From the NCBI RefSeq assembly GCF_000316625.1, contig NC_019676.1, forward strand, positions 2,746,501-2,810,500: DNA of 64,000 nt. The letters are read 5' to 3'. Position numbers and translations under genes: made by a program. Numbering within the stretch: position 1 is the stretch's first letter; each line of letters starts with the position of its first letter. The notes under the pieces are model-generated. The model saw nothing but the letters and a program-made list of their open reading frames with translations. It made no database searches and was not told the origin of the DNA. This DNA comes from Nostoc sp. PCC 7107 (GTDB lineage Bacteria > Cyanobacteriota > Cyanobacteriia > Cyanobacteriales > Nostocaceae). Below are positions 58,331-64,000 of this stretch, one piece after another.

Positions 58331-60973
58331 CTATACTGATGGTAATTGAATCTTTGTTGCCAACAGACTTTGTAAACGATGCTGTTGGGAGCCAACTTGG
58401 TAAAGTAAGTCACCTTTCCCCAATAAATAGGCTGAGGATGTTTCTGTTCCCCCCAAGACAATTTTTGAGTCTGCTTCGCTCGCTGTTCGTAAAGCCACCC
58501 TTCCTGGTAAATTTGCGCGAATAATGGGTGTAACTACCTTAGCTTCTGGACGCTGAGTCGCAATAATTAAATGTATACCTGCGGCGCGTGCCATTGCTCC
58601 CAAACGTTTGATACTTTGTTCTAGTACATTGCGGATTTCTTTTTCTGCCATAAAGTCTGCATATTCATCAAATATACAGACAATGCGAGGTAAAGCCTGA
58701 GATGAACGTTGGTTGTAAGTGGTTAAGTCAGCACAGCCAGCTTTTTCAAACCGCTGGTAGCGAGACTCCATCTCTATAACTAATTCTTCCATAAGTTCGA
58801 CGGCGCGATCGCTATCTTTGACGACTGGTGAATATAACCAAGCCATACGTTCAAACTCTGGAAAGGTAACGCGCTTAGGGTCAACCAGAGCAATTTTGAG
58901 ATTTTGCGGAGCATAACGATATAGTAAGCTGAGGAGGAGCGATCGCAGAAATTCACTCTTACCGCTACCAGTTGTCCCACCTACTAAAAAGTGGCAAGAA
59001 TTCGGATCTGATAAATCAGCCTCTACTAATTCCCCTTCTATATTTACTCCAATTGCAATTTTTACAGGTGCAGTTGCAGGTAAGAATTTTGATTGAATAT
59101 ACTTTTCAAAATGGGCAATTTGCCTATCTGGACGGGGTAAATCAATACTGACATATCCTGCTTGAGGTGCAATTAAAGGTGCATTAGCTAACCCTAATTG
59201 CACTTGTAAATCATCCGATAACTTCAGCAGTGCATTCACTTTTACACCGGGATGAGGTTTCAACTTCACCCTGATAAAAGCAGGGCCAACAGCAGCACCT
59301 TGATAATCAACACCCACACCAAAAGATTGCAAAGTATTAATTAAAGCTTCGCCTATCTCATCCGCATTTGTTGTTTCTTGATTATCTTCTATATATTCCT
59401 CCCCCCTTTTGAAGGGGGGTTGGGGGGGATCAAAACTCGTATCAGTTTTGTTAGATATCTCGCTTCTATTTTTTAAGGATGGTTGCGAGGGATCAGATAT
59501 TCCAGCACCAAAAAAAGTCTGACACTTTTGCTGTTGGGGACAAATTTCGCACAAATGAAGCTGAGTTGTTTGTGGCGGTGGGTTGGGATGAGGAGATTCC
59601 CAAGCCAACCATTGCTGCATTTGTAGTAATTTGTGGGGAATTAACTGATGTACTGTATTTTCTAACTGTTCCCAAGAATAACGATACTCTTTAAATTCAG
59701 GCAACACACAATAAACTGCTGAATCAACAGCAACTTTTTTCTTGTGATGCAGCATATAACTGTAAAGTGAAACCTGCGCCAATTGCGCTGAAGGATCTAC
59801 AGGTTGATATGTTTTAAACTCCACCACGCACAAGCGATTAATTTCAAAATTAAACACCAGACAATCAAATTCACCTCTAACTAATTGTTGTGTTCCATCA
59901 GGTAGAGAAAAGTGATGTTCAATATTGCGTTCTTGAGATAAAAAAGTATTACTAATTAATGTGTCTGCATTGCAATAGCGGCGATTAATTAATAATAATT
60001 CCGCAAAGCGTCTGATGAGTCCTTGTAATCCATTCCAAACTTGTAAAAGTGCTTTTCCCTCAGCACTATCTTTTTGTATAGCTTTTTGGAGATAAGGAAA
60101 AAATTCTAGTTGATAAAAACTTTGTTGCAGTGCAGTAGTAACTTCTTCTATTTTTAACTGTGATGCAGGTGGTTGAAATAAATTACTAAACCGTGGCTCG
60201 ATAATAGCTAATTTGACAAACTTATCTGCTAATTGATGAAATGGATTACCAATACCAATAGCTGTATCTTGTGGTAAAAATATTGCTTTATCACTAAATT
60301 GATGATTTAAATAAAACAGCCTAGGACACTCAAAGGCTAATCTAACTTTAGTAACACTTAAAGAATAATTGTTAGATTTATCTGTTACCTGCTGTGAGCT
60401 ATTATTTGCCATAAAAATATTAGTTAAATCTTTGGGATGAGATATTTTAATTAGCTGACGATGCACAGCAGCCAGATAAACTGTATCCATTGCAGCATAT
60501 TCTAACTGCTTTTTACTCAGGGGACGCTTACCCCAATCACTTGATTGTTCGGTTATATCTACATTAGAAAAATTACAGAGTTCGGCGGCTAAAGTTTTCA
60601 GCTTTAAATTAGAGGTTTGCAATCTTTTGAGGGTAATTTTTCTAGCCATTTGTAATGTACAAGTTACATTTTTAGCTAGGTGTTTACCTAAATATTTAAT
60701 ATCAAAACTAGCATTGTGAAAGACTTTTTCAATATGATGGTTAAACATGATTTGGTTAATAAAATCAGCCGCCAAATCATGTTTATCTAGTACATCAAGA
60801 ATGTAAGCAGATGCGCCTGTGCTATCTGTAGGGTCAGCCAATACTTGAATCAGCGACAATTTTGGTTCAGATGTATACCAATGAGCAATTTCTGTGTCTA
60901 CCCAAAGTGTTTTATAGTTTGTTAATTGAAATATTACCTCTTGAATTGCTGCTGATTCTGTCAGGTAGTGCAT
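58331..60973 (-). CDS. Fusion of DEDDy 3'-5' exonuclease, Cas4/AddB-like Fe-S nuclease and FtsK/HerA-type DNA motor
   Basis: 880 residues in three parts. (1) Residues 1-180: RNase D-like exonuclease with DEDDy residues D26, E28 (WVDTE), D91 (FHNASFD), Y159 and D163 (YAAMD). (2) Residues 205-490: PD-(D/E)XK nuclease with H246, D370 (RGEFD), E385/K387 (VVEFK) and four cysteines C216, C475, C478, C484 that fit a Cas4/AddB Fe-S cluster. (3) Residues 535-875: FtsK alpha-like domain and RecA-like motor with Walker A GGTTGSGKSEF (665-675), Walker B VCIFDEYADF and ATQRP. Between (2) and (3) is a linker encoded by interspersed repeats. ATG 60973; it is the last gene of the operon, 21 bp after the AAA gene stop. 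All three activities act on DNA ends; I know no named family with this combination. Confidence 0.92.
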   Translation of the reverse strand: MHYLTESAAIQEVIFQLTNYKTLWVDTEIAHWYTSEPKLSLIQVLADPTDSTGASAYILDVLDKHDLAADFINQIMFNHHIEKVFHNASFDIKYLGKHLAKNVTCTLQMARKITLKRLQTSNLKLKTLAAELCNFSNVDITEQSSDWGKRPLSKKQLEYAAMDTVYLAAVHRQLIKISHPKDLTNIFMANNSSQQVTDKSNNYSLSVTKVRLAFECPRLFYLNHQFSDKAIFLPQDTAIGIGNPFHQLADKFVKLAIIEPRFSNLFQPPASQLKIEEVTTALQQSFYQLEFFPYLQKAIQKDSAEGKALLQVWNGLQGLIRRFAELLLINRRYCNADTLISNTFLSQERNIEHHFSLPDGTQQLVRGEFDCLVFNFEINRLCVVEFKTYQPVDPSAQLAQVSLYSYMLHHKKKVAVDSAVYCVLPEFKEYRYSWEQLENTVHQLIPHKLLQMQQWLAWESPHPNPPPQTTQLHLCEICPQQQKCQTFFGAGISDPSQPSLKNRSEISNKTDTSFDPPQPPFKRGEEYIEDNQETTNADEIGEALINTLQSFGVGVDYQGAAVGPAFIRVKLKPHPGVKVNALLKLSDDLQVQLGLANAPLIAPQAGYVSIDLPRPDRQIAHFEKYIQSKFLPATAPVKIAIGVNIEGELVEADLSDPNSCHFLVGGTTGSGKSEFLRSLLLSLLYRYAPQNLKIALVDPKRVTFPEFERMAWLYSPVVKDSDRAVELMEELVIEMESRYQRFEKAGCADLTTYNQRSSQALPRIVCIFDEYADFMAEKEIRNVLEQSIKRLGAMARAAGIHLIIATQRPEAKVVTPIIRANLPGRVALRTASEADSKIVLGGTETSSAYLLGKGDLLYQVGSQQHRLQSLLATKIQLPSV
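59393..59494 (-). repeat. Two copies of a GATCCC-type interspersed repeat in the fusion gene linker
   Basis: On the coding strand one copy (59393-59431) reads GATCCCCCCCAACCCCCC with a following TTCAAAAGGGGGG hairpin, giving DPPQPPFKRG; a second, degenerate copy (59469-59494) gives SDPSQPSLKN. The first copy has an internal inverted repeat CCCCCCTT/AAGGGGGG. Similar G/C-run palindromes are common in Nostocales intergenic regions. Confidence 0.75.
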
Positions 60974-60994
60974 TGATTACAAAATGAATATAAG

Positions 60995-63139: not shown

Positions 63140-63973
63140 TTAATTCACTGTAATAAAAAACAGCGAACCACCAATATTTTGATGAATCCCTGCATCTAGT
63201 TGCTCTGCGGTATAAATACTAGCTTCTTGTAAAGTGCTAAAATCAATTTGGTCTTGAGCCTGCAAACGATACAAAGCTTGATCTAATTCATCACGCGATA
63301 GTGGCGGTTGTAATTCTTGACGTAGATGAAAAATTGGTAAATAATTCTCTGTTCCTAATTCTTTATCTAATTTCTCAATAATTTGTAAAATTTCTTCGTC
63401 ACTTATATTAATGCTGTTATCAGATGGTGGCTCAGGCGGCAATATAGGTTTAACTCGCAAAGTCTTGCGTAAAAACCGCAGATAATTACCCAGCAATTCT
63501 AAGCTGATGGCTGGTTGAACGCCTTTGTTAGGGTTGTAGTCATCTCGTAAATAGTCAATTCCTCTTTCAGTTAGCCAAACTTCGGCTTTGGCTTTTTTGA
63601 GTTGTAATTCGACTTCAATTAATCCCCGATCGCTTAGGGTTGTCAATATTGCATCTCGTTCAGCAGCTTTTGGTGCAGTAATTTTGCTGGGTGCGATTTT
63701 ACCAGAAGCTTTACTTATCTTCTCCAGTACCTTGAGTTCTTTGTCTGTAATAGGTAACTCGCCTGCCTCAAGTTTCAGCACCGTTTGACCAGCAGGTATA
63801 ATTTTGACTTTGGCAATCTCACGGGTATAGTCTACCAGTTCACGATCGCCCAACTCTCGACAAATTTTATCCTTACCTTTAAAACTATTAAAAGCAGTCA
63901 ATCCTGCTCGATAATTGGCAAATCCCAATAACTTTAAAAGAAACTTTAGTTCATTTGTATCCATGCTAGTCAT
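63140..63973 (-). CDS. wHTH-like DNA-binding/adaptor protein, first visible gene of the operon
   Basis: 277 residues from ATG 63973 (ATG 63964 possible). The frame stays open to the window edge (SIAELATG before the start), so the true start may lie upstream. At least three short helical repeats look like winged helices: TDKELKVLEKISKASGKIAPSKI, ERDAILTTLSDRGLIEVELQ and DELDQALYRLQAQDQIDFSTL, each with a GLIE/QIDF-type wing end. No family recognised. It is followed closely by the AAA gene. Its acidic/Pro linker (PILPPEPPSDNSIN) joins two such modules. Likely the DNA-recognition or partner-recruiting subunit. Confidence 0.65.
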   Translation of the reverse strand: MTSMDTNELKFLLKLLGFANYRAGLTAFNSFKGKDKICRELGDRELVDYTREIAKVKIIPAGQTVLKLEAGELPITDKELKVLEKISKASGKIAPSKITAPKAAERDAILTTLSDRGLIEVELQLKKAKAEVWLTERGIDYLRDDYNPNKGVQPAISLELLGNYLRFLRKTLRVKPILPPEPPSDNSINISDEEILQIIEKLDKELGTENYLPIFHLRQELQPPLSRDELDQALYRLQAQDQIDFSTLQEASIYTAEQLDAGIHQNIGGSLFFITVN

Positions 63974-64000
63974 CAAGCCTGTAGCTAATTCAGCTATACT

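Follow-up and report, generated by a model that had tools for sequence, protein, structure and literature searches.

A patchily distributed three-gene operon of Nostoc sp. PCC 7107, a likely member of the predicted Orc/CDC6-HerA/FtsK capture systems, and the probable mosaic history of its ATPase

Orc/CDC6 ATPases coupled with HerA/FtsK motors and with active and inactive restriction endonucleases (REases) are predicted, in sections of PMC10853773, to form 'capture' systems that intercept invading DNA. According to those sections there are two REase families, and a subset of the systems has genes for proteins of two to four winged helices; other members carry a 3'-5' exonuclease on the motor protein, one set of motors has an FtsK alpha domain, and an inactive REase is inserted between the AAA+ core and the C-terminal winged helix. 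Related ATPase genes are described there with a REase-ASCH fusion and a triple winged-helix gene. A passage of PMC12839542 cites the Orc/CDC6-HerA/FtsK systems and adds a BREX-related one. Here we analyse a three-gene operon encoding a winged-helix protein (P0003), an AAA+ ATPase (P0002) and a fusion of exonuclease, nuclease and DNA pump (P0001), found in a stretch of 64,000 nucleotides (the window; NC_019676.1, positions 2,746,501 to 2,810,500) of the 6.33-Mb, single-contig genome of Nostoc sp. PCC 7107. Taken with those sections, our results suggest, with a probability of roughly 0.6, that the three proteins are a machine, likely a member of the predicted capture class, whose task is to recognise double-stranded DNA of invaders and destroy it. 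The architecture was already predicted as an anti-invader class in the sections cited; what is new here is the mosaic history of P0002, which is the most useful new feature of the operon.

The case for a single machine begins with co-occurrence. In a survey of 292 cyanobacterial genomes, where a P0002 match was called strong at E <= 1e-70, the nuclease part of P0001 was found in 27 genomes and P0003 in 34 (33 without one hit bearing three stops); strong P0002 occurs in 33, rising to 54 at a threshold of 1e-5, and the distribution of the operon in cyanobacteria is patchy. All 27 genomes with the P0001 nuclease also hold strong P0002 and P0003 (Fisher p ~1e-32), as do 17 of 17 when counted by genus (p ~1e-17), although the test treats as independent a set that includes related genomes. 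The three genes stand together in 23 of the 27. For 21 of these the evidence is a fetched neighbourhood (including L044, with a frame of 163 amino acids in between, and L049, whose P0003 is truncated where the contig stops), and for G121 and G002 it is the coordinates; in G207 a P0002-P0001 pair opens a contig, and in G101, G051 and G233 P0001 is located elsewhere. Gene order is similarly conserved. Among the matches listed, a hand count over 43 named cyanobacterial loci placed P0003 immediately upstream of P0002 in 39, with P0001 or its nuclease part downstream in 31 (several broken or consisting of the nuclease part only), nine without a downstream P0001 and three cut at a contig end. A conjugative plasmid, that of Pseudanabaena PCC 7367, also carries the three genes, with the exonuclease missing. 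Linkage is not strict, however: P0003 and strong P0002 occur without P0001 in G109, G118, G119 and G199 (the last keeps an exonuclease remnant), strong P0002 occurs alone in G072 and G231, and P0003 occurs without strong P0002 in G062 and G215. A first-pass annotation of the window had proposed that the three genes make one machine, and that adjacency across genomes would be a check on it; because the genes co-occur and keep a conserved order, that proposal is supported, and we consider a widespread three-gene machine to be well supported.

P0001 carries four recognisable domains (Table 1). The closest solved structures to its exonuclease domain are a diDNase ancestor (E 1.7e-17) and nanoRNase C (E 1.9e-16), and the top match of the motor is the DNA translocase FtsK, 2iuu (E 3.5e-65). 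Across 19 aligned rows, the window included, the exonuclease residues D26, E28 and D91 are kept in 17 and Y159 and D163 in 18, the domain being mostly or wholly missing in two rows; the D, E, K and Q of the nuclease are conserved (D370 and K387 in 18 rows, E385 in 19), and the core Walker residues are invariant, as are four cysteines, C216, C475, C478 and C484. We take this four-cysteine pattern to resemble the one in Cas4/AddB-type nucleases, which hold an iron-sulphur cluster; such a cluster is putative here. The linker between nuclease and motor is highly variable among relatives; in the window it holds a short sequence (59391-59437) that is repeated at seven other sites in the genome. Elsewhere in the genome, a 280-base stretch (L002, C1:1890730-1891009) is 73% identical to exonuclease-domain DNA at 60635-60914 of the window. 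In L044, one of the two rows without most or all of the exonuclease, the relative of P0001 (11508-14873) has acquired a protein kinase domain and its own nuclease domain is worn; upstream of it an intact nuclease stands as a separate gene (6925-7788).

P0002 is, as judged from its sequence, an AAA+ ATPase with a C-terminal domain and, between the two, a middle domain for which neither PDB profile searches nor hhalign gave a firm fold match. The Walker A lysine and a sensor-2-like arginine (R364) are present in all 35 rows and the Walker B aspartate in 34; where a glutamate would usually follow that aspartate, 34 of 35 rows have Q or N, and among 38 rows of a broader set 20 have Q at this place and 14 have E. 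It is possible that P0002 hydrolyses slowly or acts as a switch. A broader P0002 profile returned weak, general AAA matches among structures. At least two copies of P0002, in tandem or nearly so, occur at each of L051, L065, L069, L070, L071, L108, L112, L116 and L129.

P0003 has no significant match in Pfam, NCBIfam or PADLOC. Its profile aligns with winged-helix structures over residues 191-247 (34L, E 0.0014) and 75-172 (HosA, E 0.055), both weak individually, and internally residues 1-62 align with 60-160 (hhalign E 9.6e-8); the protein probably carries three winged helices, two of them forming the internal repeat. We place its likely start at 63964, an internal ATG of the longer frame, because 19 of 27 aligned relatives start exactly there.

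All three genes lie on the minus strand; 48 bases separate P0003 from P0002 and 21 bases separate P0002 from P0001, so that the first-pass description of a closely spaced, same-strand operon is confirmed from the open frames; its description of the contents (winged-helix-like protein, AAA+ protein, exonuclease-nuclease-motor fusion) is borne out by the Pfam and profile-structure matches. The operon is intact and is not truncated by the window edge. Its upstream neighbour, 182 bases away, encodes a protein of 197 amino acids, and in the upstream sequence inspected the close gene spacing stops at P0003. The closest named relatives of P0002, among the matches listed, are in Dendronalium and Nostoc strains at 64-66% identity.

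Table 1. Coordinates, in the window, of the operon genes and their domains
Feature	Position	Strand	Details
P0003 gene, first in operon	63140..63964	-	open frame; longer frame to 63976 = 278 amino acids
P0002 gene	60995..63091	-	open frame, 698 amino acids
AAA+ domain match in P0002	62336..62959	-	residues 45-252; AAA_16 E 3.5e-9
End part of P0002	60998..61294	-	residues 600-698; 94% identity to L098, against 58% for residues 1-599
P0001 gene	58331..60973	-	open frame, 880 amino acids
DEDDy 3'-5' exonuclease domain of P0001	60449..60970	-	residues 2-175; DNA_pol_A_exo1 E 3.6e-29
PD-(D/E)XK nuclease domain of P0001	59519..60364	-	residues 204-485; PDDEXK_1 E 1.5e-11
FtsK alpha domain of P0001	59135..59389	-	residues 529-613; FtsK_alpha E 3.4e-12
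FtsK/SpoIIIE motor domain of P0001	58547..59086	-	residues 630-809; FtsK_SpoIIIE E 9e-41

Exchange of P0002 was gauged against the other two genes of the operon in 39 loci holding all three, 19 of them from fetched neighbourhoods and the others named loci in which P0001 and P0002 each exceed 600 amino acids; for L108 the longest copy of P0002 was used rather than the adjacent one, and in L127 and L130 P0001 is broken. These three loci and L065 were removed for the split-conflict and later correlation analyses, leaving 35. Certain pairs of operons agree closely in everything except the ATPase: L068 and L097 share 91% identity in P0001, 86% in P0003 and 49% in P0002, and L109 and L096 share 83%, 70% and 49% respectively. 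The divergent tract has visible limits. Between L068 and L097 it starts some 40 residues ahead of the C-terminal end of P0003, the P0002 proteins of L068 and L060 become similar again from about residue 660, and the strong difference between L056 and L061 is confined to residues 381-640. The window operon itself is an example, since its P0003 and P0001 are 84% and 88% identical to those of L098 (Nostoc sp. FACHB-110) and its P0002 splits into a divergent body and a closely similar end (Table 1). Identity at four-fold sites drops too in the divergent stretches, although each offers few such sites, and for this reason replacement of P0002 is likelier than fast amino-acid change alone.

Trees point the same way. 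With splits accepted at a FastTree local support of at least 0.95, conflicting pairs over 35 tips number 4 for P0001 against P0003, 65 for P0001 against P0002 and 28 for P0002 against P0003, counts that a few wandering tips can inflate; the conflicts were cleared by pruning 6, 10 and 6 tips respectively. The body of P0003 follows P0001 (r 0.67, p 0.001) despite P0002 lying in between, and residues 640-698 of P0002 track P0001 in the 35 loci. Most likely, on these alignments, the body of P0002 has been swapped among operons whose remaining parts stay together. A contact between the P0003 tail and P0002 was considered, the two being strongly correlated over 39 loci (partial Mantel r 0.62, p 0.001, such p-values being optimistic for related loci), and rejected because the correlation falls along P0002 (0.61, 0.42, 0.08), which linkage in one recombination tract explains equally well.

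The first-pass annotation had read an orphan ParA, a decayed toxin-antitoxin pair and an XPB-Bax1 pair as a neighbourhood of defence or repair type. Of 22 genomes tested from the family of the window, 21 have the ParA gene that lies beside the operon, whether the operon is present or absent; it is a core gene, and a functional link between it and the operon is rejected on that ground. The small open reading frame tested for the toxin-antitoxin claim (57891-58115) has no Pfam match, and XPB-Bax1 fares no better as a recurrent partner, with no such group seen by eye among those common to at least 4 of 35 neighbourhoods. The neighbourhood argument is consequently weak. As for the genes themselves, at 53545-56278 of the window a gene for an XPB-type helicase with a damage-recognition domain overlaps a DUF790 gene, presumably Bax1-like, and a pair resembling it, of 404 and 555 amino acids, lies near ParA in L203.

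What happens beside ParA in other genomes is more informative. Seventeen ParA sites were fetched, mainly from genomes without the operon at that site, and pieces of P0001 were found at four (L197, L198, L201, L212). Five sites (L197, L198, L201, L208, L211) have, near ParA, a gene of full length that resembles the HSDR_N-ParA fusion seen in L040; another is about 12 kb from ParA in L199, and L207 holds a distant version. Operon pieces and an HSDR_N-ParA-like gene occur together in L040, L041 and L050, and in both HSDR_N-ParA pairs scanned with Pfam (L040 6288-8398, L198 2979-5095) a ParB_N-type gene comes next. This fusion of an HSDR_N-like domain with a ParA ATPase, situated close to the core ParA at sites that lack the operon or keep it in a broken state, looks like a further accessory module. 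Operon pieces and HSDR_N-ParA-like genes at these sites therefore indicate that the operon is lost and that other genes enter there; this turnover and the exchange of P0002 are better hints of defence than the original neighbourhood argument.

Relatives beyond the cyanobacteria retain the same plan in part. A distant set of 27 loci (L137-L163), which includes a few cyanobacterial ones and Streptomyces and other ATPases of different kinds, has a gene for a nuclease-motor protein following that for the ATPase in 14, a lone nuclease taking its place in two Caldiserica loci; two of the 14 P0001-like proteins are cut at a contig end, one of them that of L137, which shows the nuclease part only. Pfam confirmed nuclease and FtsK domains in four of the distant proteins and the nuclease in one Caldiserica protein, and no exonuclease domain was seen in the 14 non-cyanobacterial loci. 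These 14, mostly from metagenome bins, belong to Planctomycetes (eight), Deltaproteobacteria/Desulfobacterales (three), Caldiserica (two) and Acidobacteria (one), a list of taxa that is a lower bound. A gene for 209-427 amino acids precedes the ATPase in 13 of the 14, the fourteenth beginning at a contig end; 11 aligned upstream proteins, some from outside the 14, match P0003 weakly (hhalign E 4e-5, probability 70).

A second type of operon, reached through weak cyanobacterial relatives of P0002, consists of a winged-helix-like protein, an ATPase and then a DUF1802-Mrr endonuclease, an order found in 19 of 22 loci examined. Its helix protein, of about 212-280 amino acids, matches P0003 at an hhalign E of 1.4e-11, and the D...E-C-K motif of the endonuclease is invariant in 18 of 18 aligned. 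It may correspond to the REase-ASCH and triple winged-helix type in the sections of PMC10853773. The genome of the window holds one such operon at C1:1074236-1078312 (L052 8237-12313). In two Desulfobacterales loci (L150 8001-11456, L155 3916-7026) an ATPase gene of the P0002 family stands between a gene for 243 or 292 amino acids, which precedes it, and one for a caspase that has a peptidoglycan-binding domain.

From these observations we infer how the parts would act, including complex formation, the order of steps, the target and defence itself. P0003 and P0002, the latter as an ATP-binding switch, would come together on the DNA to be attacked, and the part of P0002 that is exchanged, its body, would help to choose which DNA or which process of the invader is met. 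The assembly would recruit P0001, whose FtsK motor would form a ring and pump the DNA past the Cas4/RecB-like nuclease, which would cut it, with the DEDDy exonuclease trimming 3' ends. On this scheme P0002 would select the target and P0001 would destroy it.

Several points weigh against such a machine or against its placement in the capture class. The likeness of P0002 to Orc/CDC6 is weak (TIGR02928, orc1/cdc6, E 0.0053; Cdc6 structure 2qby, E 0.41), and its top PADLOC match is the NTPase part of Avs2 (E 3.5e-5). Neither the inactive REase nor the C-terminal winged helix of the predicted class was confirmed in it by hhalign: its middle region aligns poorly with two active-nuclease alignments (E 0.064 and 0.18), and its C-terminal region matches the helices of P0003 at E 0.0054 and 0.036 with low probability. 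No PADLOC system was satisfied as a whole, and an experimental study of the Orc/CDC6-HerA/FtsK capture class was not found in the literature searched. Outlier pairs occur in all three genes (18 of 741 for P0002, 11 for P0003, 7 for P0001), partly through broken genes, and nearest-neighbour agreement is low for every pair (P0001/P0002 9 of 39, P0001/P0003 13 of 39, P0002/P0003 6 of 39), meaning that P0002 is not the sole part with a mixed history. Within the family of the window the operon mostly keeps to a single site, next to a core gene, as under vertical inheritance. Among 72,556 plasmid records P0002 was matched by just one, and among 50,697 phage records by none. A viral origin is rejected on this last count and on pattern stretches in viral contigs, none of 103 having been confirmed.

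A broader version of the defence reading, which we hold only tentatively, is a modular alarm platform in which the winged-helix protein and the switch ATPase are a sensor driving different executioners, namely a DNA pump with nucleases, the DUF1802-Mrr endonuclease and perhaps the caspase; the ATPase body would be a specificity cassette traded between strains, rather as type I restriction enzymes have a subunit for specificity. It is unlikely that the operon instead encodes a chromosomal machine for DNA-end processing or repair, like HerA-NurA or AddAB, in which a motor and two nucleases resect breaks and P0002 and P0003 load them. The types of part would be the same (FtsK-type motor, Cas4/RecB-like nuclease with conserved cysteines, 3'-5' exonuclease) and the vertical-looking position beside the core ParA would suit it, but a repair function fits poorly with a P0001 confined to 27 of the 292 genomes, with operon losses and broken copies, with the exchange of P0002 between operons and with a related helix-ATPase pair that carries an Mrr-type endonuclease. 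Least probable is a module for maintenance or transfer of mobile elements (plasmid segregation or DNA transfer) stranded in chromosomes without a defence role, which could account for the FtsK-type pump, the three-gene copy on the Pseudanabaena plasmid and the ParA/ParB-type genes at the same site, but not for a neighbouring ParA that belongs to the core genes and occurs where the operon does not, nor for the scarcity of P0002 in plasmid and phage records, nor, to our knowledge, for nuclease domains on the pump, which are unexpected in a transfer module.

With destruction of invading DNA as the favoured reading, the predicted anti-invader class acquires something concrete to test: one complete genome holds both an intact operon and a second one related to it, the catalytic residues are clear, named strains have close relatives, and in natural swaps it is mainly the ATPase body that differs. 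Plasmid maintenance in S. elongatus has been studied by a transposon screen (PMC10653904). If P0002 does set the target, specificity could be read by swapping P0002 between two operons.

Among known systems, partial PADLOC matches of P0001 concern either the motor (SspH, mad8, HerA) or the nuclease (BrxHI, DEDDh, Cas4). DndFGH/SspFGH likewise count three genes, among them one for a nuclease that has a HerA/FtsK motor, and the P0001 motor matches SspH at 1.4e-67; the match is, however, confined to P0001 residues 529-864 and to the end of the SspH model (1398-1743 of 1766 positions), neither P0002 nor P0003 matches any model of Dnd or Ssp proteins at E <= 1, and membership is rejected as a likeness of the motor only. 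HerA-NurA is likewise a DNA pump with a nuclease, but the motor of P0001 is of FtsK type (HerA central domain just 0.0025) and there is no NurA match at E <= 1. Chromosomal FtsK shares the alpha domain and motor, whereas the N-terminus of P0001 is two nuclease domains, no gamma domain matches at E <= 1 and the protein stops 71 residues past the FtsK_SpoIIIE match. The word stem 'cyanobacter' is absent from the main text of PMC10853773, and the sections cited contain neither the four cysteines nor the swapping of P0002 nor the present counts. It is with the capture systems of those sections that the operon agrees best: P0001 has the FtsK-type motor with its alpha domain, a predicted active REase with conserved D, E, K and Q, and an exonuclease fused to the motor protein (E-values in Table 1); P0003 supplies the companion of several winged helices, at individually weak E-values; and P0002 is an AAA_16 protein that approaches orc1/cdc6 only at the TIGR02928 value given above. 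The first-pass annotation had matched the operon to no known system, and yet, as far as those sections describe the class, it fits the Orc/CDC6-HerA/FtsK capture systems on all settled points.

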